From Burkholderiales bacterium (GTDB taxonomy: Bacteria > Pseudomonadota > Gammaproteobacteria > Burkholderiales > UBA6910): DNA of 64,000 nucleotides. Of the stretch, positions 28,780-44,472 are shown piece by piece (position 1 is the first letter of the stretch; every line of letters starts with the position of its first letter). Both the position numbers and the translations under genes were made by a program. The stretch lies in contig BPKG01000001.1 in the NCBI GenBank assembly GCA_026005015.1, positions 186,001 through 250,000 of the forward strand, written 5' to 3'. Below the pieces are notes generated by a model. The model worked only from the letters and a program-made list of their open reading frames with translations, was not told the origin of the DNA and made no database searches.

Positions 28780-29505
28780 ATGGACGCGGAAGACCAGGAT
28801 CGCTACCGCGTGGACTGCGCCATAGAGGTGGCGGCCATCCTGCAGGCGATGGCCCACAGCCGTTCCTTGGTTACCGCCTGGTACGGTGGAGGTAGCGCTT
28901 TCGCTCTCACCGCAGTGCTCGAGGCCGATGCCGGCCGTGATGAGCTGATTCTGGATCAGGTGCACGAAGAGCATGCCCCGGGGCTGCTGGCGAGCCACGG
29001 CATTCAATGCACAGGGACACACAACGGGGTGGAGATCCGCTTTGTCGTGGAGAGTGTGGAACCCGTCCTCTTTCAGGGGGTTGCCGCTCTGCGCTCGGCG
29101 TTACCTGTAAGGCTCCTGCGGCTCCAGCGCCGCGAGTACTTCCGGGTAGTGACGCCGGCAGAGGCTCCGGTCACATGTATGATTCCCGCTGTTGCAGCCC
29201 CGATCGAAGCGCCCGTGCTGGATATCAGCTGTGGCGGCCTCGCCCTATGGATCTCCCAGGATGTGCTCGCCTTGGAGCGCGGCACGATACTCCGCGGCTG
29301 CCGGCTGCGGCTGCCCCACTTTGGCACGGTTGAAATCGACATCCGGGTAGTACGCGTGGGAGAGCCGAGCTTCACGGCCGGAGTTGCGGGCCGACGCTGC
29401 GGCTGCGCATTCGTGGGCATGGGCGAAGGCGAGCGCAAGCGCGTGCAGCGCTACATCATAGAACTTGAGCGTTGCCGCAATTCCCGGTTAAGCGGCTTGA
29501 GGTAA
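28780..29505 (+). CDS. PilZ-domain flagellar brake protein (YcgR-like)
   Basis: YcgR-type proteins bind c-di-GMP and slow the flagellar motor through FliG/FliM or the stator. The product is 241 aa. An N-terminal YcgR/PilZN domain (about 10-105) is followed by a PilZ domain with both ligand motifs, RREYFR (RxxxR) near residue 116 and DISCGGLAL (D/NxSxxG) near residue 150. Both are intact, so c-di-GMP binding is expected. It lies 39 bp behind fliE, making a fliE-brake operon, and a second PilZ gene is at 44484. Confidence 0.88.
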   Translation: MDAEDQDRYRVDCAIEVAAILQAMAHSRSLVTAWYGGGSAFALTAVLEADAGRDELILDQVHEEHAPGLLASHGIQCTGTHNGVEIRFVVESVEPVLFQGVAALRSALPVRLLRLQRREYFRVVTPAEAPVTCMIPAVAAPIEAPVLDISCGGLALWISQDVLALERGTILRGCRLRLPHFGTVEIDIRVVRVGEPSFTAGVAGRRCGCAFVGMGEGERKRVQRYIIELERCRNSRLSGLR

Positions 29506-29884: not shown

Positions 29885-30331
29885 TCACCGCCCCGGGGCT
29901 GACGGTCTCTGAGGTTGGAGCGTTAGCGTTTTTTGCGCCGCGCCAGGAGTGATGCTTTCCCAGGCCTCCTGCAATTCGCCAAGGAGCCAAGCTACCTCTG
30001 CCAGGGCGCCAGCGTCGTTGTGCCGGTTAGCCACCACCAAGCGGTGGGCAAGGTAATCGTAAAGCGAGGCTAGGCGTTCTGCCAGCTCACCGCCGGCTTT
30101 CATGTCTAGGCTGGCCTTCAGCCCCTGGTCGATGATCTGAATCGCCTTGGAGATGGCTTCTCCCTTGGCAGCGGTTTGGCTGTCCGCCATGTGACGGCGG
30201 GCGCGGGCGATGGCCACCCGCGCCGCTTCAAACAGCATGACGATCAGCCGGTGCGGATGCGCCGTCATGACATCGGCGTCCACGCTCGCCTGGGTATAGG
30301 CGCTGACGGCACGGTCGATGAGCGATTGCAT
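29885..30331 (-). CDS. fliS: Flagellin export chaperone FliS
   Basis: FliS binds the flagellin C-terminus and prevents premature polymerisation. The product is 148 aa. AVSAYTQASVDADVMTAHPH, LIVMLFEAARVAIARARRHM and the C-terminal SLYDYLAHRLVVANRHND are family hallmarks. The ATG at 30331 is chosen; upstream frame to 30592 lies inside fliD. It follows fliD by 10 bp and precedes fliT. Confidence 0.95.
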   Translation of the reverse strand: MQSLIDRAVSAYTQASVDADVMTAHPHRLIVMLFEAARVAIARARRHMADSQTAAKGEAISKAIQIIDQGLKASLDMKAGGELAERLASLYDYLAHRLVVANRHNDAGALAEVAWLLGELQEAWESITPGAAQKTLTLQPQRPSAPGR

Positions 30332-30341
30332 GAAAGTGTCC

Positions 30342-32336
30342 TCAAGAAGAAGATGAAAGGGCAGCGAGCTGCCGCTCCAGGAAGCTCGAAGTCTTGAGCA
30401 TGCTGGCGACCATGGCGTCCAAGGCCGTGAATTGGGCGCGCAGCCGCTTTTCCACCGCCTCCAGCCGCCGCTGCATCTCTTGCTGGCGGCGTTGCAGGGC
30501 GTCGATGGCGGCCTCCAGCGTATCGCTGCGTCCCGCGACGAGCCCATCGGCGGCGAGCAGGGTGTCGGCGAGGGTCCGAAGCCGGTAGGCATAGCCTTGG
30601 GAGTAAGAAACGCTGCCGCGCTCGCCGAGTTGCACCCCCCATACCTCGATGGTGATGCCTTCAGCGTCGGTACCCGAGGCGGCGGTCAGGGTGCGGCCCG
30701 AGCCGATAGCGGCTACGCCACCAATGCTGCCTGCCGCATCTACGCCCGCCGCTGCACTGGGACTTGCGCCGAACAGACTCTCCTGGGCGTTGCCACCGCC
30801 CAGAAGCACCGCGGAGGCCGAACCGTAACGGTTCGAGGTCACGGTAAGGGCGCCGCCCGCCTCTGAGACGGTAACGCTCACGCCAGTGGTGGAGAGGGCT
30901 GGAGCGCCGTTGATCTTGGACTGGAGTTCTGCGGCGAGACCGTCCGCCGTGTAGGTTCCGGCCTGCAGGGTGACGGTAGCTGTGACCCCGTCCACGCTCA
31001 GGCTGAGGGTGTCGTTGACCCCCGCGGTGATGGTGGTATTGGCTGCTGCCGACCCGGTCACGGACCCCTGGGTGGCGAGTCGGGTCACGGAGACCTGGTA
31101 GATGCCCGGCTTGGCAGTAGAGGTTGCGGAGGCGAACCGCATCAGACTGTCGGAGGTTTTCCCCGTGGTGGCAAATACGCCCGCCACGGCCGCGGCATCA
31201 GCCTGGAGCGCCGCCTCCAGCTTGGTCGCGTCCAGCTTCAGGGTGCCATTGGGGGCGAAGGTGATGCCGAGCTGGTATAAAGCGCTATAGCTCCCCTGGA
31301 GCCCGACCAGCTCTGCCGAAAGAGTCGAGCGCAGACGCGATTCGATGAGCCGGGGGAGCCCGTCGCTCTGGAGTACCCCGGCGGTTTTCGTGGTGGAATC
31401 GTAGCTGCCCAGCTCCTTGAGGGACTTCGCCAGCCGGTTATATGCCTCTACAAACGATTCCACCGCTTGACGAATCCCGGCGACGTCAGGGGCGATGGTA
31501 AGGTTTGTCGGCGCGCCCGCATTCGTCTTGGCCAGGGTAAGGGTTACTCCTTCCAGCGCACCGGTCACGGTGTTGGAGGCGGAGCGCATGGCGATACCGT
31601 CCAGGGTGAAGTGGGCGTCTCGGGCGGTGACCGTTTCCGCGAGGTTTTGGGTTCCGGCCGGGTCGTGGGCTAGGAGGTTGGCGAGCGCCGCATCTCCCGA
31701 GACCGAAATGCGCATGCTCCCATGAGCGCCCGAAGTGCCTGAGGACAGCACCAGGCGATGGCCGCTGCCATCGTACACGATGCTGGCGCTCACTCCGATG
31801 CCCGCCTCGTTGATGGCGTCGCGGATGCCGGCGAGACTGGCGTGAGCGGCATCGATGGTTACCGTTTTGGATGCGGTGCCACTCGGGGTAAAGGTGGCGC
31901 CGCTGTACTTGCCCGTCGCTGCATCGAAGCTTCCGCCGTCAATGCTACCGAACTCGACAGTGAGGGTTCCGGTACCAATCGATGCGGTCGCAGAGTCCTG
32001 GAGTGTCGTGGCCAGCTTTTGAGCCTGGGCCAGTTGAGTGACCTCCAGGCTGTGGAGGCCGGCTACCGCCCCTGCGCTGGCGGTGGCGGTGGCGACCTGG
32101 GCATCGCCCAAGGTGGCGGCGTAGGCGCTGAAGCGGGAAGCGGAGGCGAGGCCGGATACGGCTGACTGGAACTGGGAAAGAGACCCTTTGAGGGAACCTA
32201 GGGCTGACAGCCGCGTCTGAAAATCAGACTCCCGGCGTTGCAGCAGGGAGAGGGGCCGCCGCTCTAGGGCCACAAGCTGGGCCACCAGAGTGTTCACATC
32301 CAGGTTGGAGCCGATGCCGGGCGATGATAAAGACAT
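30342..32336 (-). CDS. fliD: Flagellar filament cap protein FliD
   Basis: FliD caps the filament and inserts flagellin subunits. The product is 664 aa, longer than the enteric 468, mainly through an extra beta-rich, Thr/Gly-rich segment (about 380-560). It starts MSLSSPGIGSNLDVNTLVAQ, typical of FliD, and ends with a coiled-coil RRQQEMQRRLEAVEKRLRAQ. The ATG at 32336 is used, not the in-frame start at 32354. It follows flaG in the fliC-flaG-fliD-fliS-fliT order. Confidence 0.95.
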   Translation of the reverse strand: MSLSSPGIGSNLDVNTLVAQLVALERRPLSLLQRRESDFQTRLSALGSLKGSLSQFQSAVSGLASASRFSAYAATLGDAQVATATASAGAVAGLHSLEVTQLAQAQKLATTLQDSATASIGTGTLTVEFGSIDGGSFDAATGKYSGATFTPSGTASKTVTIDAAHASLAGIRDAINEAGIGVSASIVYDGSGHRLVLSSGTSGAHGSMRISVSGDAALANLLAHDPAGTQNLAETVTARDAHFTLDGIAMRSASNTVTGALEGVTLTLAKTNAGAPTNLTIAPDVAGIRQAVESFVEAYNRLAKSLKELGSYDSTTKTAGVLQSDGLPRLIESRLRSTLSAELVGLQGSYSALYQLGITFAPNGTLKLDATKLEAALQADAAAVAGVFATTGKTSDSLMRFASATSTAKPGIYQVSVTRLATQGSVTGSAAANTTITAGVNDTLSLSVDGVTATVTLQAGTYTADGLAAELQSKINGAPALSTTGVSVTVSEAGGALTVTSNRYGSASAVLLGGGNAQESLFGASPSAAAGVDAAGSIGGVAAIGSGRTLTAASGTDAEGITIEVWGVQLGERGSVSYSQGYAYRLRTLADTLLAADGLVAGRSDTLEAAIDALQRRQQEMQRRLEAVEKRLRAQFTALDAMVASMLKTSSFLERQLAALSSSS

Positions 32337-32354
32337 GTAGCGCCTCCGTCGCAA

Positions 32355-32693
32355 TTACCCCTTGTGGTCCAGCAGCACCCCCTGCATCCGGTCGAGACCC
32401 CGAGCGATGGCCAAGACTTCCTCTGGGGGAATCTGCCGCAGGACCTCGCCAGTGGTCCGGTCCACTATTTGCACCACGAGCTTGCGGGTCGCCTCATCCA
32501 TACCATAGCGAAGCTCTACCGACAGATGGCGCAAAGCGGCGTTGATCTGCCCGGACGTCTCGCGCACTTGCGCTTCCTCCACGGCCGATGTCCGAGCGGC
32601 CTCGGTACGTGGCAGTTCGTGCTCGCGGGGTGCGAGATCGAGAGACCGCGCTGCTCTGGTGTCCGTAGCAGGGCCGATGGAGTTGGCGATCAT
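32355..32693 (-). CDS. flaG: FlaG family protein
   Basis: FlaG-type proteins influence filament length in polarly flagellated bacteria. The product is 112 aa. A disordered N-terminal half is followed by the FlaG domain: LRYGMDEATRKLVVQIVDRT and TGEVLRQIPPEEVLAIARGL. It lies between fliC and fliD, the standard position. A stable hairpin separates it from fliC, so its level may depend on read-through. Confidence 0.92.
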   Translation of the reverse strand: MIANSIGPATDTRAARSLDLAPREHELPRTEAARTSAVEEAQVRETSGQINAALRHLSVELRYGMDEATRKLVVQIVDRTTGEVLRQIPPEEVLAIARGLDRMQGVLLDHKG

Positions 32694-32716
32694 GGGTTAG
32701 GCTCCCTTTTTATTGA

Positions 32717-32742
32717 GCCCGCGCCGGAGAAACGGCGCGGGC
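32717..32742 (-). terminator. Hairpin between fliC and flaG
   Basis: GCCCGCGCCG and CGGCGCGGGC form a perfect 10-bp GC-rich stem with a 6-base loop, 11 bp beyond the fliC stop on the minus strand. The following bases are TCAATAAAAAG, with no T-run, so it may be a partial terminator or an mRNA-stabilising 3' stem for abundant fliC message. Confidence 0.55.
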
Positions 32743-32752
32743 GGCACGGAGC

Positions 32753-33607
32753 TTACCGTAGTAAGGAGAGCACGGTATTGGGCAGAGCGTTTGCTTGCGC
32801 CAGCATCGCAACGCCGGCCTGTTGCAGGATTTGACCGCGGGTGAGGGCTGCCGTCTCGGCGGCGAAGTCCGCGTCCATGATCCGGCTGCGGGAAGCGGTG
32901 AGGTTCTCGGCGTAGTTCTGCAGGTTGGCGATCACGGCCTCGAACCGGTTTTGCACGGCACCGAAAGTGGCGCGCACCGTGCTTACCCTGGAAATGTCGG
33001 CGTCCAGGTTGGCGATAGCCGCTGAAGCGTTGGCTGAGGTGGATACGTTGATCACGCCTGTCGCAGTGAGGGTGCCACTGTAAGAGTAAAGACCTGCAGA
33101 TCCGTTGGTCGCGAGATCGGTGGTGGTCACGGAAACCTGGTTAGACGCTACTCCGCTTGCACCCACCTGGAAGGTCAGCGTCGAGGAACCTGACAGCAGC
33201 GAGGTGCCGTTGAAGGTGGTTGTCTGGACGATGCGGGAAATTTCCTGAGTGAGCTGATCCACCTCCTTTTGCAACTGGCCACGGTCGGTGTCGCTGATGG
33301 TGCCATTGGCGGCCTGCACCGCGATCTCGCGGATGCGTTGCAGGTTGTTGGCTATCTGGGCTAAGGCGCCCTCGGCCGTTTGGCCAAGGGAGATGCCGTC
33401 GTTGGCGTTACGCACCGCTTGATTGGTGCCCCGGATTTGGGAAGTGAAGCTTTCTGCCACCGCCAGACCCGCAGCGTCGTCCTTGGCGCTATTGACCCGC
33501 AGCCCAGAGGACAGGCGTTGAATGGCGGTCTGCAATTGGGATTGGGATGCAGACAGATTGCGCTGAGCGTTCAGCGACGCGATGTTGGTGTTGACTACAA
33601 GTGCCAT
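32753..33607 (-). CDS. fliC: Flagellin FliC
   Basis: FliC is the filament subunit. The product is 284 aa, a short flagellin: D0/D1 domains with a small central domain (about 150-200). It starts [20 protein letters not shown], has [20 protein letters not shown], and ends [15 protein letters not shown]. The segment [18 protein letters not shown] corresponds to the TLR5-contact and assembly region of enteric flagellin. The central part is rich in Ser, Thr and Asn, giving possible O-glycosylation sites. AAAGGAG precedes the ATG at 33607. A sigma-28-type promoter lies about 80 bp upstream and a glycosyltransferase gene ends at that promoter. Confidence 0.97.
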
Positions 33608-33684
33608 TTCCGATCTCCTTTCAATTCGATGTAACTGGGGCGATCCGACCGCTCGATTCGCGTCGCACAACCGCCTTGTGCCGG

Positions 33685-33712
33685 TTATCGGATGGCTGAC
33701 GGGAAAACTTTA
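33685..33712 (-). promoter_or_regulatory. Sigma-28 promoter of fliC
   Basis: On the minus strand TAAAGTTT (33712-33705) is followed after 12 bp by TCCGATAA (33692-33685): a perfect FliA -35 and a 7/8 -10, with spacing one base longer than usual. The first TAA of the -35 is the stop codon of the upstream glycosyltransferase gene. Confidence 0.75.
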
Positions 33713-36700
33713 GGGTAAAGCCAGGGCGCACGGCCGGGCCTGGACCGGGGCCCGGTCAGTAAGCGCGTCTAGCCATTCCTCCAAGGAATTTTCCAAAAGG
33801 TAGCTCGCGAGTACCCACTCGCGTAGCCTGTCGCCTTCTTGTGCTGCTGCATCCAGGTTGTGGATCCGTTCCCGGATCGCCTCGATCCATACGCGGGGTT
33901 CGTTGGACAGACGGGTGACCGGGGCCCCCTGGTAGGGATAAATGTCAGTGCACACCACCGGCCAACCCAGCACGCCGTACTCCAGCAGCCGCAGGTTGCT
34001 TTTGGCCTCGTTGAAGGCATTGAGCTCTAGAGGCGCTATGGCCAGGTCCAGGTTGAGGCTCGCGAGCTTGGCGGGATATTCGTCGAAGGAGACGAATTCG
34101 TGGAATTCGTGCACGTAGGGGCGCAGCGCTTCCGGGCACATGCCGAAAAACACCCATTCGGCCTCCTGGGCGGTAGCGCGCACCACGTCGTAGATGAGTT
34201 CCAGGTCCCCTTGGTGTTGCTGGGCGCCGGCCCAACCCACCCGTGGCTTACGGCCTGCCCGGCGCGCCGAGTGCAATCCGAGCCAGCGATCGCTCTCCAG
34301 CCGGTTAGGCACCACCCGCACGTCATCGCACATGCTGCGGGTAAGTTCCCGTAAAGGCTCGGTGGAGACGATTAGGCGCTGACACAAGGCCGCTGCACGG
34401 CGTAGACGCGGTTTGGCGTCTTTGAAGGCGAAGCGGTAAAAAGCGTTCTTAGGCGGAAGCTGGGTAATAAGATCATCCAGGCTCATGACGCGCAGCATTC
34501 GCGGAAGGAAACGGCTATAGAGTTCGAGTGCCTGCAGGTAGGCGTCGTTGATCGCCGCGTGCAATACTAGCGTGTCGGGAGCCAAACGCTCCATCTCGAT
34601 GAGGCTCAGCACCCTTGCCTGCATGAGGCCAGGAGGATCGATGGCGGTGCACTGGGCAAGGCCCGCGTCGGACAAAGCTCGGAAAGGGCCACGGATGCGA
34701 TACTCGCCGGAGCCCCCTGCCAAGGGAAGACCCAGCACCCGTGGACGGTCGTGAAACTCGGGATCCCATTCCGGCACAGCACCGGCCTCCACCCGGAAGT
34801 CCAGGGCGGTGAGGGCGAGGTTACGGTTGTACGCAGGATCCCGGGCAAGTCGGGGGAGCCAGCGGGAGAGCATCCAGAGGCGCTCTTTCTCCGCGCGCTC
34901 TGCAGCTAAGGCGAGTTTCTTCAAGTCCCTGCGCTCATCGTGGATGGAAGTGGAGCCATGATGAACTACAGTGGCAAACGGCGTCCAAACTACCCGGTAT
35001 CCTTGTTTGGCGAGGCGCAGACAGAAGTCCACGTCGTTAAACAGCACGGCAAGATTCTCTTGATCCATGCCTCCGGCATTCAAATAGACATTGCGCCGCA
35101 CCAGCATGCATGCTGCAGTCACCGCCGAATAGTTTTGGTCCACCTGGGCGCGGTTCATGTAACCGGAATCGCTCAGGCTGGTCTTGCCGTCACTGAACGC
35201 GTGGTGGGCGATATCTGTAAGGCCAAGCACTATGCCAGCATGTTGAAGGGCCGCGGACTCCGGGTACACCAACCGGCAGCCTACGACTCCAACGTCGGGG
35301 CGCATGCCGTGGAGCATCATGCGTTCCAGCCATTCCGGCTGTACGATCTGGGTGTCGTTGTTCAGAAACAGCAGATATTCCCCACGGGCCTCTTTGGCTG
35401 CGGCGTTGCACATGGCGGCGAAGTTAAAAGGATAGGGATAGGATAGCAGCCGCACCCGTTCGCCATGTTTTTCCTCGAGCGTTTCGTAGTACGCCAAGAC
35501 GTCTGGATCGCTGCTGCCGTTGTCACACAGGATTACTTCGTAGTGGGGATAGGTGGTCTTGGCGAAAAGGCTTTCGACACAGGGTTGAAGGAATTCCAGT
35601 TTGTCTTTTGTCGGTATGATGATGGAAACAAGGGGTCTGTCCGGGTGGTGGTAGATGACCCGCACGGTGCCAGGGATAAACCCATCGGCCAGCTCGGCCT
35701 GGATGCCGCGGCGGTGCAGGTGGCGCGTCAGGGCCGCTCGGGTAGAAGGCGTGTGCAGCCCGGCTTCCAGCTTGCTGGGAAGGCTCAGTAGCACATCCGC
35801 GATGTGCCCGATGGCTTCCTCCTCGTAGCGGTCCAGGATTTGGAGGAGAAGATCGTAATCATGCGCTGGCGATACCTCGGCGAAAGCGTCTGCCCGCACA
35901 GCAATCCCGGGGCCGGCATAAGGCATGGAGCGAGCCAGATCTAGGTTAAAGTCGGGTTTGAAGCGGGGATTCAAACGGTTTCCGCCAGGATCGATGCGGT
36001 CGTCATCCCAGTAGATCAAGCGCCAGCGAGGATGGGCATCGGCGTAGTCGGCGATAGAAAACAAGGCATGGGGGGCAAGCTGAGCGCCGGCCGGCAGGCA
36101 CACGATCCAATCCTCGGGAGGTGGCGCTACGGCGAATAGGGGTGCATCGGGCGAAATCCAGCGGACACCTGCAGCCACAGGACCCTCGGCTGCTGGCGCT
36201 GGGAATTCGGCCATCACCGTAAGTTCGAGTTGGCGATAGAGCTGGGTAGAGAGGGAATCCAGGGTGTCTGCGAGTAGTTCTTCCTCCCCGTGCCTCGCGT
36301 GCACCACAACGTGTAGCGTCGGGCGCGAGCGCCAGCGCAGCATCATCCGTTCGGCATACACTTGGCCGTGAATTAGGCGCAGGCGCTTGTGGGCGCACCA
36401 GCGGGTGTAAGCATGCGCGTCGTCGCGGACTTTGGTAGGCTCGGACGGGGTGCTTGTTAGGCCCTCTTCCGCAAAACGGGAAAGGGGGCCATGGTGGACT
36501 GCCGTTACCCGCGGCAGGTGGGCATGGGTGACCCCCATTTCCAGGAAACGCTCCCAAAGATCCCAATCGGCAGGGTAAAAATACTTCCAGCTGGCCCCGT
36601 TGTAATGGAAGGACTTCAATCCGGCGTGGTACAAGGATGAGATGCGGGCGATGTGCCCCAGTGCCGGGATTTCTCCCCCCACTCTCACGTTCGGGCGGCC

Positions 36701-37279
36701 GTTGCCACGGATGAATTCGACTTCTGAGTGGACCCATTCGACGCGGCGTTGCCTTGCGAGCTCCAAGAGATCTCCCAAGTGCTGGGGAAAAAATTCGTCG
36801 TCATCGTCCAAATGGGCGATCCATTGCCCCCGGGCAAGCGCCAGGCCTACGTTAGCGGGTTTGCAACCGGCCACGTACCAGCGTGGCCCGGCCAGTTCCG
36901 GATAGCGCCCGCGGCGGCGCAGATTGACGAAGCGCACGCGCGGGTCTTCGATTCCTGCCAGCAGCCGCGCGCTGTCAGGATCGGCGCCATCGCCGACGAT
37001 GATCAATTCCCAATGGGGATATTCCTGGCGCAGCACCGAAGGCAGGGTACGCTCAAGAATGATCCGGGCGCGATTATAGGTGGGGATGATCACTGATATC
37101 AGGGGCGCGGGTGCGTCGAAGGCGGCAGCGTATTGGGAGTGGGCGCGGAGCCTTGCCAGGCGCTCACGGTCATCGCGGCGGCGTTTGGCCTTCTCTACGC
37201 GCCCGATTGCTTCGAAGAACTGCAGCGCGAATCGGTAATGGGCATCAGGTGCAGTGGGCGCTGGCTCGGGTAGGCTCAT
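33710..37279 (-). CDS. Multi-module glycosyltransferase (GT2, GT2 and GT-B), probable flagellin glycosyltransferase
   Basis: The product is 1189 aa with several sugar-transfer modules. A GT2/GT-A domain starts near residue 60 (PLISVIIPTYNRARIILERT) with the metal-binding AHLDDDDEF. A central part resembles a degenerate GT2. A second full GT2 domain begins near residue 550 (PLVSIIIPTKDKLEFLQPCV) with LLFLNNDTQIVQPEW and FNDVDFCLRLAKQGYRVVW. The C-terminal 300 residues resemble a GT-B (GT4-like) fold: RKPRVGWAGAQQHQGDLELI and AFNEAKSNLRLLEYGVLGWP. Such proteins build short glycans on flagellin or surface polysaccharide. Position immediately before fliC and behind sugar-biosynthesis genes favours flagellin; O-antigen is the alternative. 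The ATG at 37279 overlaps the DegT gene by 35 bp. Confidence 0.85.
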   Translation of the reverse strand: MSLPEPAPTAPDAHYRFALQFFEAIGRVEKAKRRRDDRERLARLRAHSQYAAAFDAPAPLISVIIPTYNRARIILERTLPSVLRQEYPHWELIIVGDGADPDSARLLAGIEDPRVRFVNLRRRGRYPELAGPRWYVAGCKPANVGLALARGQWIAHLDDDDEFFPQHLGDLLELARQRRVEWVHSEVEFIRGNGRPNVRVGGEIPALGHIARISSLYHAGLKSFHYNGASWKYFYPADWDLWERFLEMGVTHAHLPRVTAVHHGPLSRFAEEGLTSTPSEPTKVRDDAHAYTRWCAHKRLRLIHGQVYAERMMLRWRSRPTLHVVVHARHGEEELLADTLDSLSTQLYRQLELTVMAEFPAPAAEGPVAAGVRWISPDAPLFAVAPPPEDWIVCLPAGAQLAPHALFSIADYADAHPRWRLIYWDDDRIDPGGNRLNPRFKPDFNLDLARSMPYAGPGIAVRADAFAEVSPAHDYDLLLQILDRYEEEAIGHIADVLLSLPSKLEAGLHTPSTRAALTRHLHRRGIQAELADGFIPGTVRVIYHHPDRPLVSIIIPTKDKLEFLQPCVESLFAKTTYPHYEVILCDNGSSDPDVLAYYETLEEKHGERVRLLSYPYPFNFAAMCNAAAKEARGEYLLFLNNDTQIVQPEWLERMMLHGMRPDVGVVGCRLVYPESAALQHAGIVLGLTDIAHHAFSDGKTSLSDSGYMNRAQVDQNYSAVTAACMLVRRNVYLNAGGMDQENLAVLFNDVDFCLRLAKQGYRVVWTPFATVVHHGSTSIHDERRDLKKLALAAERAEKERLWMLSRWLPRLARDPAYNRNLALTALDFRVEAGAVPEWDPEFHDRPRVLGLPLAGGSGEYRIRGPFRALSDAGLAQCTAIDPPGLMQARVLSLIEMERLAPDTLVLHAAINDAYLQALELYSRFLPRMLRVMSLDDLITQLPPKNAFYRFAFKDAKPRLRRAAALCQRLIVSTEPLRELTRSMCDDVRVVPNRLESDRWLGLHSARRAGRKPRVGWAGAQQHQGDLELIYDVVRATAQEAEWVFFGMCPEALRPYVHEFHEFVSFDEYPAKLASLNLDLAIAPLELNAFNEAKSNLRLLEYGVLGWPVVCTDIYPYQGAPVTRLSNEPRVWIEAIRERIHNLDAAAQEGDRLREWVLASYLLENSLEEWLDALTDRAPVQARPCALALP

Positions 37280-38402
37280 GGATCGGCTCTCGTGCTCGGA
37301 AGGTATCGGTAAGGACTTGGCTAAAGAGGGCGCTCGCCGCATCGATCAGCGAGGGCTTCATGGTCGCGTGCACCGGCATGCAGATCATCGAGGAGCAAAG
37401 GCGTTCGGTAACCGGCAAAGCGCGCTTCAGGCCGTAGTGGCGGAATAGCCGGGTGCGATGCAGCGCCGGATGATAGTAGCGACGAAGCTCAAGGCCAGCG
37501 CGGATGCAACGTCGGCGCAGCGCTTCAGCGTCCGTGCCCGGGGCGAGCAGCAGGGGCAGCGTTTGCCAAGGGGGTTCGCCTGGGGCATGGGGTGCGGTGA
37601 TGATCCCCCTTTCAAGCCACGGCGAGAGCTGCTGGAGGTAGCGGCCCACGGTGGCGCGCCGTGCGGCAATGTGGCGCTGCAGCTCATCAAGGGCCGCTAA
37701 ACCGATAGCCGCGGCAAACTCGGAGAGTTTGCCGTTCACGCCGCGGGCGATGACGTCTCCGTCTTGAAAACCGAAGTTGATAGCCCGGCGCACGGCGGTT
37801 GCGAGCTGCGGAGGGCACAGAACGATTCCACCCTCGCCGATGGCGAACACCTTGGTGGCATGTAGCGAGAAAATTTCGGCCACGCCGGCATGGCCCACGG
37901 GAATGCCAGGGCCCGCCCCGCCTAGGGCGGCGGCACTATCCACGATCAGGGGCACGCCGTGGCGAGCGCAGACGGATTCCAGCGGCGCCAGGTCACGGCA
38001 GAGGCCGAACGCCCGCACGGTGACCACGGCGTTTGCGCTCCGGGACGAGAGCAGCTCTTCCAAGGCCGTTGGGCAGAGCTCCCAGCTCACGGGATCCACG
38101 TCGCAAAAGAGCGGCGTCGCTCCTGCGGCCAGGACTGCTTGAGCGGTGGCTGCAAAAGTGAAGGAGGGCACCACGACCCGACCGCGGATCTCTAGGGCGC
38201 GCAACACCGCCTCCAATCCTGCTGTGGCGTTGGCGACCGGCACTGCCACGCGACTACCCATGCCGAAGCACTCACTGAGCCGCCGGGCAAAAAGCTCGTG
38301 GACGGGGCCAAAGTTGCTAAACCAATGGTTCTGGTAGGCCGGGCGCAGATACGCCAGCCAGCGCTCCGGTGGCGGAAGGTCGGGTTTGATGAAGCGGATC
38401 AC
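37245..38402 (-). CDS. DegT/DnrJ/EryC1-family sugar aminotransferase
   Basis: This PLP enzyme family transaminates nucleotide-linked keto-sugars to amino-sugars. The product is 385 aa. The PLP-binding Asp is in PLIVDSAAALGG and the Schiff-base Lys in FSLHATKVFAIGEGG; NGKLSEFAAAIGLAAL is the conserved active-site segment. The GTG at 38402 overlaps the stop of the acyltransferase gene (GTGA) and is preferred to the TTG at 38423. Together with the acyltransferase it should make an N-acylated amino-sugar such as a Fuc3NAc- or Qui4NAc-type residue; the exact sugar cannot be told. Confidence 0.87.
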   Translation of the reverse strand: MIRFIKPDLPPPERWLAYLRPAYQNHWFSNFGPVHELFARRLSECFGMGSRVAVPVANATAGLEAVLRALEIRGRVVVPSFTFAATAQAVLAAGATPLFCDVDPVSWELCPTALEELLSSRSANAVVTVRAFGLCRDLAPLESVCARHGVPLIVDSAAALGGAGPGIPVGHAGVAEIFSLHATKVFAIGEGGIVLCPPQLATAVRRAINFGFQDGDVIARGVNGKLSEFAAAIGLAALDELQRHIAARRATVGRYLQQLSPWLERGIITAPHAPGEPPWQTLPLLLAPGTDAEALRRRCIRAGLELRRYYHPALHRTRLFRHYGLKRALPVTERLCSSMICMPVHATMKPSLIDAASALFSQVLTDTFRAREPIHEPTRASAHCT

Positions 38403-38989
38403 TGGACTACCTGGCCAGGACAAAGGTTTTGGAATAGCCGTCCGGGCTTACCGTGCTGGGCATATAGCGATTGCTCCATGGCAAGCAAGGTATCGGCGGG
38501 GCGCCGGCCGATGCGGCGCGCTGGGCTGCCTGCCACCACGCTCCATGGTTCGACGTCGCGCCGCACCAAGGACAAAGCGCCAACCGCGGCGCCTGTACCG
38601 ACGGTTACGCCGGGGAGAATGACGCTATTCGCCCCGATGATGGCGTGCGCTTGGACCCAGGCGCGGGAGCGTCGCACGGCTCGGTAAGACGGGGGGATGG
38701 TGGGATTAGTCAGCCCGCCTCCTAGGAAATCCTCGCTTCCAGTAAGAAGCCGCACCCCCGAGGAGAGACCGGCAAAATCTTCCAGCACGAACGGACCGCC
38801 TCCGGTGATGGAGGCAAAAGCGGCGATATGCACGTAGTTGCCGATAACACTGGGGCTGGTGGCCTGGATGAAAACGAAGTCATCGATGATGACGTGATCG
38901 CCGATATGGAGGTATTCGGCACCGACAATGCGGGCCGAAGGATAGATTCGTACCCCCAAGCCGACCGAGCAGAAGCGGTGCTCGGTCAC
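38399..38989 (-). CDS. Left-handed beta-helix (hexapeptide) acyltransferase
   Basis: This family acetylates amino-sugar nucleotides. The product is 196 aa with hexapeptide repeats throughout (VRIYPSARIVGAEYLHIGDH, IGANSVILPGVTVGTGAAVG) and the family ending VVAGSPARRIGRR. The catalytic His cannot be assigned with confidence; VHIAAFASITGGG is the likely region. The GTG at 38989 overlaps the diguanylate cyclase stop by 4 bp and its own stop overlaps the DegT start, so the genes are a tightly coupled operon. It most likely acts on the product of the DegT enzyme. Confidence 0.85.
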   Translation of the reverse strand: MTEHRFCSVGLGVRIYPSARIVGAEYLHIGDHVIIDDFVFIQATSPSVIGNYVHIAAFASITGGGPFVLEDFAGLSSGVRLLTGSEDFLGGGLTNPTIPPSYRAVRRSRAWVQAHAIIGANSVILPGVTVGTGAAVGALSLVRRDVEPWSVVAGSPARRIGRRPADTLLAMEQSLYAQHGKPGRLFQNLCPGQVVQ

Positions 38990-40728
38990 GGTCCGTCCCC
39001 CTGCGGCGGTGGCAGCACTGCGACCCGGTTCTTGCCCGCCCGCTTGGCTTGATAAAGGGCCTTGTCTGCGCGTCCCAGCACCACATTGTCGTCCTCTCCC
39101 GCGCGACGCAGGGTCACTCCGGCGCTGAAGGTCACGATGGGTCTGCGTTGATCGTGGAGATAGATATTCTTAGTGAGCTCCCGCTGCAGGCGCACGAGCA
39201 CTTTGGCCGCCTCTTCCAACTCGGTCTCGGGAAAGAGCAAGACGAACTCCTCGCCGCCATAGCGGGCCACCACGTCGGTCGGCCGCAGGCTATGGCGCAT
39301 GGTTTGAGCTAGGGCGCGCAACGCCTCGTCTCCCACCTGATGGCCCCAAGCGTCGTTGAGTTGCTTGAAGTTATCCACGTCCAGCATGGCCACGGCGAGG
39401 GGTGCGCCATGCCGGTCGGCGCGGGCCGCCTCCCGGTGCCACGCTTCGGCCAGGCCCACGCGATTGAGCGCACCGGTCAAGGAGTCCTCGCGAGCGTTTT
39501 CCGCAGCCAGGGCAAGTTGGGCTTGCAGATGGCGGATTTTTTCTTCCGCTTCCTCGGCCCGCCGGCGAGCTTCTTGTAACTCCTTGTGGGAGCGGCGCGC
39601 GCTTGCTTCCATGGCCCGAGTGTCTTGCAGCACTTCCGCCAGAATCGCGCCCAGCTCGTCCAGATCAGCGGCGCCGCTGATGCGCTGTGCGTAACGCTCG
39701 ATTTGGCCGTGAAATTGACCGGTCTCATCCGCAAGACTTCCCAGCCGGTCGATGAACAACGCGATCATACTTTTGAGGGCTTGGTGTGATTCGTGCACCG
39801 ACCGCCGCACCGCGCCTTGGCGGATGATGGTATCCCGCAGGGCGCGCTCTGCCTGTGCCAGCGCAGGCAGATCGAAAGGCGCTTCCAAGGCTTGGGACAG
39901 CGCACGCATTTGCTGGTGAAGCCCCGGAGTCTCCTGAACGCTTTCGGCCAAGCTGTCGGCCATCAGTTTCAACAGACGGCGCGCCAACTCATCGCGCTGC
40001 GCCTGTTCGGCAAGGCGCATTTCCACATCTAGCCACAAGTGGCGCAACTGCTCCCTCAAGCGGTCGGTGGAAAGCGGTCGATCAGCTTGCCGAACGGCTC
40101 CCGCCAGACGCTTGGCCTGCGTTGCCAAGGCGGCGCTGCTTGTTTCAAGAAAAGCAGCGAAACGCTCTAGGGTGTCGGCAAGGAGATGGCGAAGTTCCCC
40201 GCCGTCAGCGTCGGAAGGCGGTGCAGGTGCGGGCGCCGGCTCCAGGCCCTGGGGCGCCAGGGCCCAGGCGTCAGCCAGCTCCTTTATCCGTCGAAACAAT
40301 TCCTGCGCATGGCCGCCGTGGGCAGCAAGCACGTTTTCCAACCTTTCCCGCTTGCGGGTCGGCGTGAGGCCTTTGCGAGGAATGTCCCATTGGCGCAGCA
40401 AATGCCGCACCAGAGCGGCCCAATCCAGGTTGAGGTGGGAGGCGATGAACGCGGACAGATCCTGTAGCGCGGTGCGCACGAGAGGCTCGCTGCGGGTGAC
40501 GATGGCTTTCTGCACGGCATGAGTTTGGGAGGCCGCAGCGGGCGCCTCTCGACCCAGCCTGGTGCACCAGTCTGCGAGCAGCTCCCAACCATCGATCTCC
40601 AGCGGCAAACCGGCAATCTCCCGGTACACCCGGGCGTAGTTGTCGGGTGTCGGCACGAGCCGCTGCTGGGCCAGGCGGTGCAAGGTGGATCGAGCGATAG
40701 CGGCTGGATCTGCGGCGCTCGTGGACAT
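38986..40728 (-). CDS. Diguanylate cyclase with N-terminal helical sensor region
   Basis: The product is 580 aa. The first 400 residues have no recognised sensory domain; they are helical, with heptad-rich coiled coil (for example SRRSHKELQEARRRAEEAEE is typical of its composition) leading into the catalytic domain. The GGDEF domain (about 410-570) has the active signature ARYGGEEFVLLFP and an intact RPTD inhibitory site five residues upstream, so it should make c-di-GMP under product control. No membrane segment is seen, so it is likely cytoplasmic. Its stop overlaps the acyltransferase start, which makes it the first gene of the glycosylation operon. Confidence 0.92.
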   Translation of the reverse strand: MSTSAADPAAIARSTLHRLAQQRLVPTPDNYARVYREIAGLPLEIDGWELLADWCTRLGREAPAAASQTHAVQKAIVTRSEPLVRTALQDLSAFIASHLNLDWAALVRHLLRQWDIPRKGLTPTRKRERLENVLAAHGGHAQELFRRIKELADAWALAPQGLEPAPAPAPPSDADGGELRHLLADTLERFAAFLETSSAALATQAKRLAGAVRQADRPLSTDRLREQLRHLWLDVEMRLAEQAQRDELARRLLKLMADSLAESVQETPGLHQQMRALSQALEAPFDLPALAQAERALRDTIIRQGAVRRSVHESHQALKSMIALFIDRLGSLADETGQFHGQIERYAQRISGAADLDELGAILAEVLQDTRAMEASARRSHKELQEARRRAEEAEEKIRHLQAQLALAAENAREDSLTGALNRVGLAEAWHREAARADRHGAPLAVAMLDVDNFKQLNDAWGHQVGDEALRALAQTMRHSLRPTDVVARYGGEEFVLLFPETELEEAAKVLVRLQRELTKNIYLHDQRRPIVTFSAGVTLRRAGEDDNVVLGRADKALYQAKRAGKNRVAVLPPPQGDGP

Positions 40729-40791
40729 AAGGCAAACCGGTCACTGAATGCACGAGCATTATGGGTGGCCGATTCGTGCCGCAAGGGTCAG

Positions 40792-40823
40792 AAAAAAGGC
40801 GGGGAAAGGGGTTATTTCCCCGC
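40792..40823 (-). terminator. Rho-independent terminator of the response regulator operon
   Basis: On the minus strand GCGGGGAAA pairs with TTTCCCCGC (40823-40799, 7-base loop) and is followed by CTTTTTTC. It lies 27 bp beyond the regulator stop at 40850 and is the clearest intrinsic terminator on this strand. Confidence 0.85.
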
Positions 40824-40849
40824 TCGCAGGACAGGAGAAGTGCCCCAGC

Positions 40850-41488
40850 CTACTCCACCAGGCCCTTAGAGATGGCGTAGCGGATGAGCTCGGCGTTGTT
40901 TTTAAGCCGCATTTTTTCCAGCAGCCGGGCTCGGTAGACGCTCACGGTCTTGACGCTAATATTGAGCTCCTCGGCGATTTGCGTGAGGCCTTTCCCCGAA
41001 GCAATCAGGCACAAAATCTGGTATTCCCGGTTCGACAGGCGCTCGTGGGGCGCCTCTTGAGCGTTGCCGGCGATGGAGTCGGCGAGCTGCTCCGCTAAGG
41101 TGGGGCTCACGTACTTGCGGCCTGAGGCCACCTGGCGAATGGCCTCCACCAGCAGCTCGGGAGCACTCTGCTTGGAAACGTAACCTGCTGCGCCTGCCTT
41201 GAGAACGCGCAGCCCGACCATGTCTTCCGGATACATAGACAGGACCAGGACCGGAAGGCGGGGAAACTCGTTCCGGATCTGGGTCAAGGTGTCGAGACCG
41301 CTCCGTTTGGGCATGGCGATGTCGAGCAAGACCGCTTGGCACCCTTGCCCGTAGCGGCGCAGCCACTGGATTGCCTCTACCCCGTTGTCGGCTTCGCCTG
41401 CTACGTCAAGATCGTCGCAATCATTGAGGATCTGCTTGAGCCCGTGACGCACCACCGCGTGGTCGTCCACGATAAGCACTCGGATCAT
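40850..41488 (-). CDS. NarL/FixJ-type response regulator
   Basis: The product is 212 aa. The receiver domain (1-120) starts MIRVLIVDDHAVVRHGLKQI with the phosphoacceptor Asp in AVLLDIAMPKRSG and the conserved Lys in GYVSKQSAPELL. The LuxR-type helix-turn-helix (about 145-210) reads LSNREYQILCLIASGKGLTQ then IAEELNISVKTVSVYRARLL. The ATG at 41488 overlaps the kinase stop (ATGA), so the pair is co-translated. Target genes are not evident; an intrinsic terminator follows. Confidence 0.94.
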   Translation of the reverse strand: MIRVLIVDDHAVVRHGLKQILNDCDDLDVAGEADNGVEAIQWLRRYGQGCQAVLLDIAMPKRSGLDTLTQIRNEFPRLPVLVLSMYPEDMVGLRVLKAGAAGYVSKQSAPELLVEAIRQVASGRKYVSPTLAEQLADSIAGNAQEAPHERLSNREYQILCLIASGKGLTQIAEELNISVKTVSVYRARLLEKMRLKNNAELIRYAISKGLVE

Positions 41489-43017
41489 GGGCGGGCCTCG
41501 ACTGAGGTCAGGCCAGGCTTGTGCGGCTCGTTCCGGCGTGGCGGGCCGCTCGTCTGAAAGTCCGGAATGCAGACTCGAAGCCGGGTGCCTCCTGCTAGCC
41601 CCGCCTCGATGTGCGCCTCGCCGCCCAGGGCACGGCAACGTTCCAAGATGCCTCGAATGCCGAACGCACCCGGTTTGGCAAGATCCGCGGCCTCGATCCC
41701 ACGCCCGTTGTCCATCACCTCCAGGCTCACCTGCCCTCCTTGATAGCGCAAAACGGCGCGCACTTCGGATGCCTCCGCATGCTTCGAGACATTGGTCAGG
41801 GCCTCCTGGAAAATCCGAAACAGGGCAGTCGCCAGCTCCTCAGGGAGCTCTAGGTCTTCCGGCTCTGCTTCCACATCGCACACGATCCCGAGGCGGTTTT
41901 CGAACTCCTTCGCCTGCCAGAAGAAGGCTGGCGCCAGGCCGAAATCCAGGATTGGGGGGCGCAGATCGCGGGCGATGCGCTCCGTCGCGGCGATGACCCG
42001 ATCCACCAGGATGCGGATCGAGCTCACTCGACCCAACAGGTCCATGCTTTGCGTCGGCAGGCGATTCATGAGGGAGGCGAGCTCCAGCTTGACTGCCGTG
42101 AGCGTGCCGCCCAAGTCGTCGTGGATCTCCCGAGCGATCCGGGCGCGCTCCTCCTCCCTGACCCGTTCCACGTGGGAGGAAAGCTCCAAAAGCTGCGCAC
42201 TAGAGCGCTTCGCTTCCAGCTCGATGCGCTTGTTGCGGGTGATGTTGGTTACGATGCCCGCCCATAGCACGGTACCGTCTTCCCGGCGACGAGGCCCGGC
42301 ACGCACGTTTACCCACTTGGGACCGTTGCTATAGGAGGTGAGGAGGCGCCCTTCCCAGTTACAGGTATCGAGGTGGCGCTCAGAGTGGGACAGCGCTTCG
42401 AGGAAGCTGGCCCGGTCCTCGAGCACGATCTGCTCGATGAAGCGCCCGGCATCCGCAAGGAGCGCTTCCGGGGCGAGCCCCAGAAGCGGCCGGGCGCCCT
42501 CGCTGACGAAGGTGAAGCGATCGCCGCTTCGCTCCCGGGCTAGCTCGAATACCATGCCGGGCACGTGGCAGGCGAGGCTGCGGAACTTGGCCTCGCTTTC
42601 CCGCAGGGCCTGTTGGGCCTGAAGCCGCTCCCGCCGTTCGGCGGCAACGGCAAGGGCGCGCTCTACCGCGTGGGCAAGCCGCCACAAGTGGTCCCGCAGC
42701 AGATATTCATCGGCGCCGGCTTTGACGATGTCCGCCGCGGCTTGTTCGCCGATTGGATCCAAGACCACTACCACGGGAAGGTCTGGGCGGATCTCCTTGG
42801 CCGAGACAATAGCGGCCAAGGCATTGAAGCCCGGAACGGCGTGCTCCGTCACCAAGAGATCCCATGGCCGGAGCGAGAGCGCTGTTGTCAAAGCTGTCAG
42901 CGTTTCGACGCGCTCTGCCTCGATTTGGTATCCCTCGGCCTCCATCCGCGGGATGAGGCAGGTCTGCGCCGACGTCGCGTCTCCTGCGATGAGCAGGCGC
43001 AGTAATCGTCCTTTCAT
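41485..43017 (-). CDS. Sensor histidine kinase with degenerate receiver, PAS, HisKA_3 and HATPase domains
   Basis: The product is 510 aa and soluble. An N-terminal receiver-like domain (about 8-125) lacks the phosphoacceptor: where the family has Asp (SDY), it reads WDLLVTEHAVPGF, and the acidic pair is reduced. A PAS domain (about 150-265) follows. The HisKA_3 dimerisation helix carries the phosphorylatable His in IAREIHDDLGGTLTAVKLEL, and the ATPase domain has FRIFQEALTNVSKHAEAS and VMDNGRGI. This is the NarX/DegS class that pairs with the NarL-type regulator overlapping its 3' end. The ATG at 43017 replaces an in-frame start at 43089. An FNR/Anr-type box lies upstream. Confidence 0.92.
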   Translation of the reverse strand: MKGRLLRLLIAGDATSAQTCLIPRMEAEGYQIEAERVETLTALTTALSLRPWDLLVTEHAVPGFNALAAIVSAKEIRPDLPVVVVLDPIGEQAAADIVKAGADEYLLRDHLWRLAHAVERALAVAAERRERLQAQQALRESEAKFRSLACHVPGMVFELARERSGDRFTFVSEGARPLLGLAPEALLADAGRFIEQIVLEDRASFLEALSHSERHLDTCNWEGRLLTSYSNGPKWVNVRAGPRRREDGTVLWAGIVTNITRNKRIELEAKRSSAQLLELSSHVERVREEERARIAREIHDDLGGTLTAVKLELASLMNRLPTQSMDLLGRVSSIRILVDRVIAATERIARDLRPPILDFGLAPAFFWQAKEFENRLGIVCDVEAEPEDLELPEELATALFRIFQEALTNVSKHAEASEVRAVLRYQGGQVSLEVMDNGRGIEAADLAKPGAFGIRGILERCRALGGEAHIEAGLAGGTRLRVCIPDFQTSGPPRRNEPHKPGLTSVEARP

Positions 43018-43055
43018 GCTGTTTTTGGGCTTTTTCCTACCCGCAGGCGCGGGCA

Positions 43056-43097
43056 ATTGTAACATCGTTTTTGCCGCGCATCTTGACATCGGTCAAG
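43056..43097 (-). promoter_or_regulatory. FNR/Anr-type box and -10 element before the kinase-regulator operon
   Basis: CTTGACATCGGTCAAG (43082-43097) is a perfect 16-bp palindrome of the FNR/Anr/Dnr class (TTGAC-N4-GTCAA). A -10-like TACAAT (43061-43056 on the minus strand) predicts a start near 43049, placing the box centre near -40.5, i.e. class II activator geometry for the kinase gene. Confidence 0.7.
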
Positions 43098-43224: not shown

Positions 43225-44472
43225 ATGCGAGACGTCTACCTCGGGCGCCAGCCCATCCTCGACATCCAGCGCCAAACTGTGGCCTACGAGCTTCTGTTCC
43301 GGAGCGCGTCGACCGGGCCGGCCGTGATCCGAGATGACTCCCTGGCCACTGCCCAGGTCATCGTGGGAGCGTTCTGCGACCTGGGTTTGCAGCAGGTGCT
43401 GGGAGCGTACAAGGGCCATATCAACGTGGGTAGCGATCTCCTGCTGAGCGACACGGTGGAGCTCCTGCCCAAGGAGTGCGCAGTGCTGGAGTTGCTGGAG
43501 ACGGTGGAGCCCGTGCCGGAAGTCCTCAAGCGCTGCGCCGAGCTCAGACGCCAGGGTTATCGCATCGCCCTGGACGATGTGGTGGAGCCGGGCGAGCGGC
43601 TGGAGCGGCTGCTCGACGTGGCAGACGTGGTCAAGGTGGACGTCAAGGCTGCTTCAGAAAGTTCCGTGCGCGCAACGGTCGAAGCGCTGCGGGGGCGGTC
43701 GGTGGTGCTGCTGGCGGAAAAAGTGGACACTCCGGAGCAGGCCGAGACATGCAGAGCCCTCGGCTTCCGATTGTTCCAAGGCTATTTCTTCGCGCGTCCA
43801 GAAATTCTTTCCAGCAAGCGGGCCGACCCGACGAAGATGGCGCTGCTGCGACTCCTGTCCCTGGTTTTGGCGGACGCAAGTCCGGCCGAGATCGAGCAGG
43901 CGCTCAAACCCCACGTGGGGCTTTCCTACAACCTACTGCGCCTGGTGAACTCGGCCGCAAGCGGCTTGCCGAGGCGCATCCATTCCTTGCGCCAGGGCAT
44001 CCTCGTCCTGGGACAGCGCCAGCTGCTGCGCTGGGTGCAGCTTCTGCTTTATACCGCCCCTGTGGCGGGGGGCAACCTGACCAATCCCTTGATCCAGCTC
44101 GTGGCCACCCGCGCCAGGCTGATGGAGTTGCTCGCCGCTCGGGAGGTGCCCGAACGACCGGAGGTGAGGGATCAGGCTTTTATGGTGGGGTTATTGTCCC
44201 TGCTGGACACTTTGCTTGGCATGCCGATGGCCGAGATCGTAGAGGAGCTGAATCTCGCCCCGGAAATTGCCGAGGCACTGCTCAAGCGCAGGGGGATGTT
44301 CGGCCGCCTGCTTGAGCTGCAGGAGTGGCTCGAATCGGGCGAGGTCGCCAAGGTGATGGCGGCGCTCAAGCAATTTACCGGCTTCAACCTAGGCGATCTC
44401 ATGCAGGACCAGCTGGAAGCGTTCAAATGGGCCCATGACCTGGGTCGAGACAGTGGCGAGAGTACAGGCTAA
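43225..44472 (+). CDS. EAL-HDOD protein (YuxH/CdgJ-like), degenerate EAL
   Basis: The product is 415 aa with an N-terminal EAL-like domain (about 1-195) and a C-terminal HDOD domain (about 200-390). The EAL motif reads VAYELLFRS and the metal-binding DDFG position reads LDDVVEPGE, so phosphodiesterase activity is doubtful; such proteins may bind c-di-GMP or act through the HDOD part. HDOD features include GLSYNLLRLVNSAASGLP and RQGILVLGQRQLLRW. A sigma-28-type promoter lies upstream and a PilZ gene follows 11 bp downstream, pointing to motility. The ATG at 43225 has no clear Shine-Dalgarno. Confidence 0.9.
   Translation: MRDVYLGRQPILDIQRQTVAYELLFRSASTGPAVIRDDSLATAQVIVGAFCDLGLQQVLGAYKGHINVGSDLLLSDTVELLPKECAVLELLETVEPVPEVLKRCAELRRQGYRIALDDVVEPGERLERLLDVADVVKVDVKAASESSVRATVEALRGRSVVLLAEKVDTPEQAETCRALGFRLFQGYFFARPEILSSKRADPTKMALLRLLSLVLADASPAEIEQALKPHVGLSYNLLRLVNSAASGLPRRIHSLRQGILVLGQRQLLRWVQLLLYTAPVAGGNLTNPLIQLVATRARLMELLAAREVPERPEVRDQAFMVGLLSLLDTLLGMPMAEIVEELNLAPEIAEALLKRRGMFGRLLELQEWLESGEVAKVMAALKQFTGFNLGDLMQDQLEAFKWAHDLGRDSGESTG

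Follow-up and report, generated by a model that had tools for sequence, protein, structure and literature searches.

A candidate exchangeable flagellin-glycosylation cassette between a conserved diguanylate cyclase gene and fliC in a Burkholderiales bacterium

A 64,000-nucleotide stretch of DNA from a Burkholderiales bacterium of the UBA6910 lineage (assembly GCA_026005015.1, contig BPKG01000001.1, positions 186,001 to 250,000; hereafter the window) carries, directly upstream of the flagellin gene fliC, overlapping genes for a GGDEF diguanylate cyclase, a hexapeptide acyltransferase, a DegT-type sugar aminotransferase and a very large glycosyltransferase (GT). Comparison of this locus with related genomes suggests, as the best reading, that the glycan genes form an exchangeable cassette between the conserved cyclase gene and fliC. 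Flagellin glycosylation by the gene set is likely, and we put at roughly 65% the probability that these genes make and attach a flagellin glycan, with the acyltransferase, the DegT enzyme and the GT front as the exchangeable part. The gene order, the protein families, the borders of the exchange and the presence of different cassettes at this one site in several genomes were read directly from the sequences.

Replacement of the gene set between sister species

A blastn comparison with a sister species (G001) aligned positions 29941–36412 and 40851–42950 of the window collinearly, with approximately 75% identity. The intervening positions 36413–40850, which hold the cyclase, the acyltransferase, the DegT gene and the front of the GT gene, remained unaligned and measure 4.44 kb, as against 0.98 kb in the sister species. 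One border falls at the stop codon of the response regulator (RR) gene upstream of the cyclase (40851) and the other near codon 289 of the GT gene. The 0.98-kb stretch puts a Methyltransf_24 module on the same GT core. The sister species retains the GT and fliC without the cyclase, and no cyclase orthologue was found anywhere in its genome at the thresholds used. Foreign base composition of the segment was considered and discarded: the G+C content at third codon positions was 0.70–0.74, versus 0.73–0.77 in the histidine kinase (HK), RR, fliC and fliD genes, leaving no mark, and the conserved GT core also stands at 0.70.

Contents of the interval between the cyclase gene and fliC

The interval was compared in 30 genomes of the order, a non-random sample in which the cyclase gene and fliC could be placed on one strand (G112 and G277 by hand; the duplicate G048 counted once). 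In half of these (15/30), fewer than 400 bp with nothing between separate the two genes; one interval spans 632 bp and another 1.6 kb without identified content. A second GGDEF gene occupies six intervals, and one (G085) holds genes that resemble chemotaxis genes. Glycan cassettes were found in the remaining six. PseB and PseC scored above the curated cut-offs in G217, PseC and PseI in G040 (with a PseB-like gene and a large TPR protein), and PseC and PseF in G125 (with a PseB-like gene). Glucose-1-phosphate cytidylyltransferase and RfbH exceeded their cut-offs in G112, a layout that G362 repeats with weaker matches, while G277 carries an FkbM methyltransferase, a core-bearing GT of at least 1,800 residues and two further genes (one TPR) before fliC. 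In g76, a single genus, G335 has an empty interval, G217 one of the Pse type and G112 (probably also G362) one of the CDP-sugar type; the window shows yet another content. The sugar set looks swapped, because other genomes keep the cyclase at the same spot even without sugar genes; most simply, glycan cassettes would have settled in the space that separates the cyclase from fliC.

Gene order, junctions and transcription

As listed in Table 1, the minus strand carries, in order, HK, RR, a terminator-like site, cyclase, acyltransferase, DegT, GT, fliC, flaG and fliD. A preliminary description of this DNA had reported four genes with overlaps of 4, 4 and 35 bp, and all of the open reading frames (ORFs) were recovered on this strand with matching families (Pfam: GGDEF, E = 4e-44; Hexapep, 1e-10; DegT_DnrJ_EryC1, 3e-69; Glycos_transf_2, 3e-42). 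The fliC product matched Flagellin_N (2e-45) and Flagellin_C (8e-24). The cyclase/acyltransferase and acyltransferase/DegT junctions are 4-bp GTGA overlaps (38989–38986 and 38402–38399, respectively, minus strand), and the DegT/GT overlap is 35 bp (37279–37245) given the ATG at 37279 as the GT start, or 98 bp when the longest GT ORF, starting at 37342, is taken. In the ORF list, DegT begins at a TTG further upstream than the GTGA-overlap start, and the RR gene starts at 41638. The same description had placed the last stop codon inside the −35 box of a sigma-28 promoter of fliC, which proved correct: the TAA of the GT gene (33712–33710) provides the first three bases of TAAAGTTT-N12-TCCGATAA (33712–33685), and in the sister species a TAA likewise lies within TAAAGTTT before fliC. 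The search pattern, composed after the site had been seen, matched once in the window and 0.00 times on average in shuffled sequences. The spacer is 12 nucleotides, and that of the sigma-28 consensus is 11.

Between the RR and cyclase genes lies a terminator-like site (40823–40799) with a 9-pair stem, 6 of the pairs GC, followed by CTTTTTT; none was called at the junctions of the four-gene unit, and such sites are not in excess in the region (9, versus 10.9 in shuffles). A search for a sigma-70-type promoter ahead of the cyclase found none. Because of the terminator-like site before the cyclase and the lack of a detectable sigma-70-type promoter there, the four genes are likely to form one transcription unit. 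That the locus is a mere stack of unrelated genes without a common function, as might be argued from an exact four-gene order seen in no other locus examined, is very improbable in view of the overlapping frames, the terminator-like site standing before the cyclase with none called at the junctions, and the recurrence of similar assemblies.

A conserved glycosyltransferase core with a variable front

The GT comprises 1189 residues (33710–37279, minus strand). Its residues 287–1189 align with nine relatives, with 79% identity in the sister species (residues 277–1185 in the search) and 37–54% in eight others; in our reading, this core has a degenerate GT2-like front and a GT-B-like end. Residues 1–288 are non-homologous to the front of the sister protein, which is of the Methyltransf_24 family. 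A family scan of 12 core GTs revealed that the N-terminal modules vary widely, although not in all. A GT2 domain was found in G028, several in G036, and GT2 together with a group-1 GT in G050. G016 combines a group-1 GT and GT2 with a weak methyltransferase match, G052 a Methyltransf_11-type domain with GT2, and Denitromonas has Methyltransf_11. G046, G035 and G024 share one front of the Methyltransf_23 type, the front of G007 matched none of the families listed, and G004 has no extra domain. In G052, the core itself is split: residues 289–853 are fused to the methyltransferase and GT2 front behind DegT and acyltransferase genes, with a 4-bp acyltransferase/GT overlap (L066, 15499–18735), and a separate protein matching core residues 867–1174 (L121, 9383–10708) is encoded directly upstream of fliC.

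The GT core next to fliC in other genomes

Among 11 loci of the order, the GT core lies upstream of fliC in seven (the sister species, G036, G050, G016, G035, G024 and G007). Named genomes were scanned with the GT-core alignment, and the figures given here are for the best 80 loci of a longer list: fliC lies at most 2.5 kb downstream in 30, and three loci end too soon. A DegT gene is present in 16 of these 30 GT–fliC loci, and an acyltransferase match in three (Zoogloea sp. LCSB751, MAG (metagenome-assembled genome) SZAS-78 and Pseudomonas sp. G34). Pseudomonas sp. G34 has the order acyltransferase–DegT–ketoisomerase-like gene–GT–fliC, without a cyclase. A cyclase orthologue lies upstream in two of the 30, Denitromonas ohlonensis and the Nitrosomonadales MAG nzgw561; none was found in the stretch read for the other 28, four of which have less than 9 kb upstream, and five of these 28 have a GGDEF-domain match far downstream on the other strand. 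The order in D. ohlonensis is HK–RR–cyclase–GT–fliC, with a GT fronted by a methyltransferase. The cyclase of nzgw561 (L174) is full-length, with 44% identity (E = 1.5e-125) and HK–RR upstream. It precedes a stretch of approximately 9.7 kb that holds TPR, ketoisomerase-like, DegT and GT-core genes but no acyltransferase of the window type; fliC-flaG-fliD and a YcgR-type gene come next. The ketoisomerase-like genes of L174, L215 and L255 are presumably 3,4-ketoisomerases, and the name fliS, like those of other genes visible as ORF beginnings only, is likewise our assumption. The preliminary description knew of no system with this exact composition; the statement holds for the four-gene order, which occurs in no other locus examined, and has to be tempered by the near precedents in Pseudomonas sp. 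G34 and nzgw561. In several loci from Thiomonas, Tibeticola and MAGs (L153, L154, L157, L159, L164, L176, L186), an EAL-HDOD-like gene takes the place of fliC after the GT core.

Several observations weigh against the reading as an exchangeable flagellin-glycan cassette. In 4 of the 11 loci of the order, the GT core does not adjoin fliC (in G052 the separate last third does); of the best 80 named loci, 32 showed neither fliC nor fliD nor fliS around the core, and 15 have their flagellar genes elsewhere in the locus. The 30 intervals compared above were, as stated, a non-random sample. Within family f1, the cyclase is present in one of four genomes, so that it may have been gained together with the cassette. 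The N-terminal GT2 module of the window matches generic GT2 domains only. No acyltransferase gene was found within approximately 1.5 kb of its relatives in 24 other loci read (36 other matches were listed), and a DegT gene lies near in one of the 24; because the relatives lack an adjoining acyltransferase, a pairing of module and sugar finds no support in sequence. The supply of the sugar precursor and the surroundings of the closest acyltransferase–DegT pair, both described below, also count on this side.

The acyltransferase, the DegT enzyme and the predicted sugar

In searches against solved structures, the acyltransferase matched the 3vbi group best, over residues 5–165 of 196 and thus across most of its length (E = 5e-31; 111 bits, with 47 for the next family). 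The deposited name of 3vbi is Galactoside O-acetyltransferase; we take it to be AntD, which acylates dTDP-4-amino-4,6-dideoxyglucose. The best solved relative of the DegT protein was 2po3 (E = 5e-43), presumably DesI, and its best NCBIfam family among those listed was DesI (TIGR04427), with 199 bits, below the cut-off of 650. The acyltransferase reached 54 bits against the NeuD/PglB/VioB family TIGR03570 (cut-off 160.8), over residues 110–158 only. A pseudaminic acid pathway was considered and rejected, the DegT protein scoring 144 bits against PseC (cut-off 423.5). Because the closest solved relatives of the two enzymes are presumably AntD and DesI, their predicted product is an N-acylated 4-amino-4,6-dideoxy sugar. 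Sugars of this class occur on the flagellin of Pseudomonas syringae (PMC3958885, PMC3927599), whose glycan is described as ending in a 4-amino-4,6-dideoxy sugar that bears an N-acyl group (PMC3958885). With the GT core adjoining fliC and enzyme relatives of the AntD and DesI kind, the proposal of the preliminary description that flagellin carries an N-acyl amino sugar remains the best reading.

The precursor may come from contig C4 of the same genome, which has rmlC and an rmlB-like gene. Its supply is uncertain, because rmlB (dTDP-glucose 4,6-dehydratase, C4:196725–197722) is spread over three reading frames, which may be a genuine disruption or an artefact of assembly.

The acyltransferase is present in 14 of 399 genomes of the order, this one included. 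In the other 13, neither the cyclase gene nor fliC was found beside it in the stretches read (5–20 kb), and the GT core adjoins it only in G052. Plasmid records yielded only distant relatives of the acyltransferase (four records), and the DegT protein, used as query against the collection of named genomes, returned no relative. The closest acyltransferase–DegT pair (G161; 56/45% identity by tblastn) lies behind genes resembling O-antigen ABC transporters, presumably wzm and wzt, so that the sugar could be used for lipopolysaccharide. This surrounding, and the rarity of fliC and the GT core beside the acyltransferase, would suit a pair that makes a sugar for lipopolysaccharide or another polysaccharide and stands before fliC incidentally. 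Such an origin appears quite improbable to us: the window pair is embedded, in overlapping frames, between the cyclase and the flagellin-locus GT, and a Wzm/Wzt-like locus that carries DegT and NeuD-type genes of its own stands apart on contig C4, some kilobases from rmlC. The O-antigen reading was set aside on account of that separate locus.

For a flagellin glycan, we infer the enzymatic steps, the target and the roles of the modules and the cyclase as follows. The DegT enzyme would aminate dTDP-4-keto-6-deoxyglucose supplied from elsewhere in the genome, and the AntD-like acyltransferase would N-acylate the product, giving a sugar of the viosamine/anthrose type. The conserved GT core would build the common, protein-linked part of the glycan, the N-terminal module would add the strain-specific residue, and the giant enzyme would place the glycan on FliC before export. 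The acyltransferase, the DegT enzyme and the N-terminal module would constitute the exchangeable part between the HK–RR–cyclase block and fliC. The cyclase, although probably co-transcribed, would more likely have its own target in motility control, for example YcgR.

The cyclase and cyclic di-GMP

The GGEEF motif and the inhibitory-site residues R482/D485 (RxxD) of the cyclase are invariant in 12 aligned orthologues (L081, L085 and L099, partial or with a stop, were left out), as expected of an active diguanylate cyclase. An AlphaFold model showed an all-helical N-terminus at low global confidence (predicted template modelling score, 0.36). With the N-terminal part as query (E of 1e-12 or better), orthologues were detected in 214 of 399 genomes of the order. 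Among 58 loci hand-picked from genomes with a match, mostly one per genus, fliC lies at most 3 kb downstream in 17, an RR gene nearby in 17 (16 upstream on the same strand), both fliC downstream and RR upstream in 11, and flg or mot genes near in 19. No such marker was seen in the stretch read in 18, although in three of these (G040, G217, G277) fliC was found further downstream. An HK gene precedes the cyclase in part of the orthologue loci. Within 6 kb of the cyclase, a DegT gene occurs in 4 of the 58 loci and an acyltransferase or GT core in none. The cyclase often stands between flgA and flgBCDE (loci such as L124, L126, L131, L264). The open-access literature yielded no description of this recurring flagellar-locus cyclase, nor any account of a diguanylate cyclase in a flagellar gene cluster upstream of fliC. 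Its N-terminal region presumably resembles that of DgcP of P. aeruginosa. Like the window cyclase, DgcP is a GGEEF protein; it is polar, is thought to serve pole organelles, interacts with FimV and, unlike the window cyclase, is not presented as the product of a flagellin-locus gene in the excerpts of the report available (PMC7033161).

In the preliminary description, the cyclase was part of the sugar system, and its translational coupling was taken to link sugar production and filament modification to local cyclic di-GMP (c-di-GMP). Membership in the sugar system is weakened by the 214 orthologue-bearing genomes, by the short, empty cyclase–fliC interval in half of the genomes compared and by a sister species with GT and fliC but no cyclase. 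The link to c-di-GMP is likewise weaker than proposed, although possible, in that different glycan cassettes recur behind the cyclase. Neighbourhoods lacking the cyclase, which that description itself held would weaken the link, are the rule, at 28 of the 30 named GT–fliC loci in the stretch read.

This proposal, under which the translationally coupled cyclase would let local c-di-GMP tune sugar supply or glycosyltransfer during filament growth, is in our view unlikely. It draws on the 4-bp cyclase/acyltransferase overlap, on the intact active and inhibitory sites, and on five other arrangements preceded by the cyclase, namely Pse-type, CDP-sugar-type, FkbM–GT (G277), GT alone (Denitromonas) and ketoisomerase–DegT–GT (nzgw561). 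Cyclase–fliC pairs without glycan genes are, however, common, GT–fliC without the cyclase prevails, in the sister species as well, and Pfam detected no PilZ domain, as a c-di-GMP-controlled GT might carry, in the window GT or in 12 orthologues, although a c-di-GMP site of another kind may be present. A YcgR-type gene is also nearer to hand. In all 12 cyclase–fliC loci where this could be decided (17 undecidable), such a gene comes after fliD and shares its strand; among named GT-core loci the figure is 2 of 20 (a further 10 undecidable), one being the cyclase-bearing nzgw561, a comparison confounded by kinship; in the window it lies on the strand opposite to the flagellar block (28780–29505). 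Genes for an EAL-HDOD protein and a further PilZ protein adjoin the HK gene (43225–44472 and 44484–45398, respectively, both plus strand). The kinase–cyclase–flagellin block is thus flanked by one EAL-HDOD gene and two YcgR/PilZ-type genes, a grouping of several c-di-GMP genes, and all three have relatives in the corresponding region of the sister species.

Service to the flagellum, for example through a YcgR brake, rather than to the sugar is the more likely role of the cyclase. A regulatory use for the glycan is possible, given the probable co-transcription in the window and the recurring association of cyclase and cassettes; coupling of the sugar to c-di-GMP may exist but finds no support other than from neighbourhood. 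A somewhat less doubtful, though still tentative, proposal is that the cyclase–fliC interval serves across the order as a site of cassette exchange, where the constant cyclase would put any glycan under the c-di-GMP control of filament growth and braking. We claim no priority for a link between c-di-GMP and flagellin glycans, as the open-access literature mentions both together.

Relation to known flagellin-glycosylation systems

The locus most resembles fgt/vio of P. syringae, where fgt1 and fgt2 lie upstream of fliC and a viosamine island comprises vioA-vioB-vioT (PMC3927599). As there, a large multidomain GT stands directly upstream of fliC, and the set includes a DegT-type aminotransferase and a small acyltransferase (372 and 213 residues in P. 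syringae, with a transferase of 1,173; PMC3927599). The vio genes of P. syringae, however, occupy another locus with vioS, vioR, acp and vioM (PMC3927599), whereas the aminotransferase, acyltransferase and multidomain GT of the window form one overlapping unit before fliC with the cyclase first. No vioS, vioR or acp was found among the four genes between RR and fliC, the region searched. The likeness to Fgt1 and VioT is one of families, sizes and gene order.

The PAK-type island of P. aeruginosa is larger than the window set. Like the latter, that island (orfA–orfN) has glycan genes of strain-variable content upstream of the flagellin gene and, unlike the window, no cyclase is mentioned for it in the excerpts available (PMC3927599, PMC3958885). 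The GT2 of type B flagellin in Clostridioides difficile bears a methyltransferase domain, as does the module of the sister species, but the GT loci of C. difficile lie downstream of fliC and the likeness is one of domain content only (PMC5207246). The novelty lies in a cassette that looks exchangeable, set between a conserved cyclase and fliC, in combination with a swappable GT front; otherwise the locus is like known flagellin-glycosylation islands.

Table 1. Positions of the flagellin-locus features in the window.
Feature	Position	Strand	Basis or remark
Histidine kinase (HK), first of the HK–RR–cyclase block	41485..43089	-	HisKA_3, HATPase_c
NarL/GacA-type response regulator (RR)	40850..41485	-	Response_reg, GerE; the exchanged segment begins at its stop codon
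Intrinsic-terminator-like site, RR/cyclase	40799..40823	-	stem and T run
GGDEF diguanylate cyclase, 580 aa	38986..40728	-	Pfam; GGEEF at 491, I-site RPTD at 482
Hexapeptide acyltransferase, 196 aa, GTG start	38399..38989	-	Hexapep; 3vbi group, E 5e-31
DegT sugar aminotransferase, 385 aa, Lys184 in HATK	37245..38402	-	Pfam; best solved relative 2po3
GT N-terminal GT2 module, residues 1–286	36422..37279	-	Pfam; non-homologous to the sister's module
GT conserved core, residues 287–1189, GT2 domain 573–752	33710..36421	-	alignment of relatives
Exchanged segment, 4.44 kb (0.98 kb in sister G001)	36413..40850	.	blastn borders
Sigma-28-type fliC promoter overlapping the GT stop	33685..33712	-	pattern match
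fliC, 284-aa flagellin	32753..33607	-	Flagellin_N, Flagellin_C
flaG	32355..32693	-	family search
fliD	30342..32354	-	family search
YcgR-type protein, PilZN and PilZ	28780..29505	+	family search

Significance

The glycans on flagellin vary among closely related strains and can influence how cells swim, adhere and are recognized. In the present case, two congeneric species have fliC and the GT core in common, and the donor-sugar genes and the GT front are swapped between sharp borders. The locus is a testable model for how a filament coating may change while the filament itself is kept, and the cyclase and YcgR-type gene that recur around its variable part would allow a clean test of any connection between c-di-GMP and the decoration of the filament.

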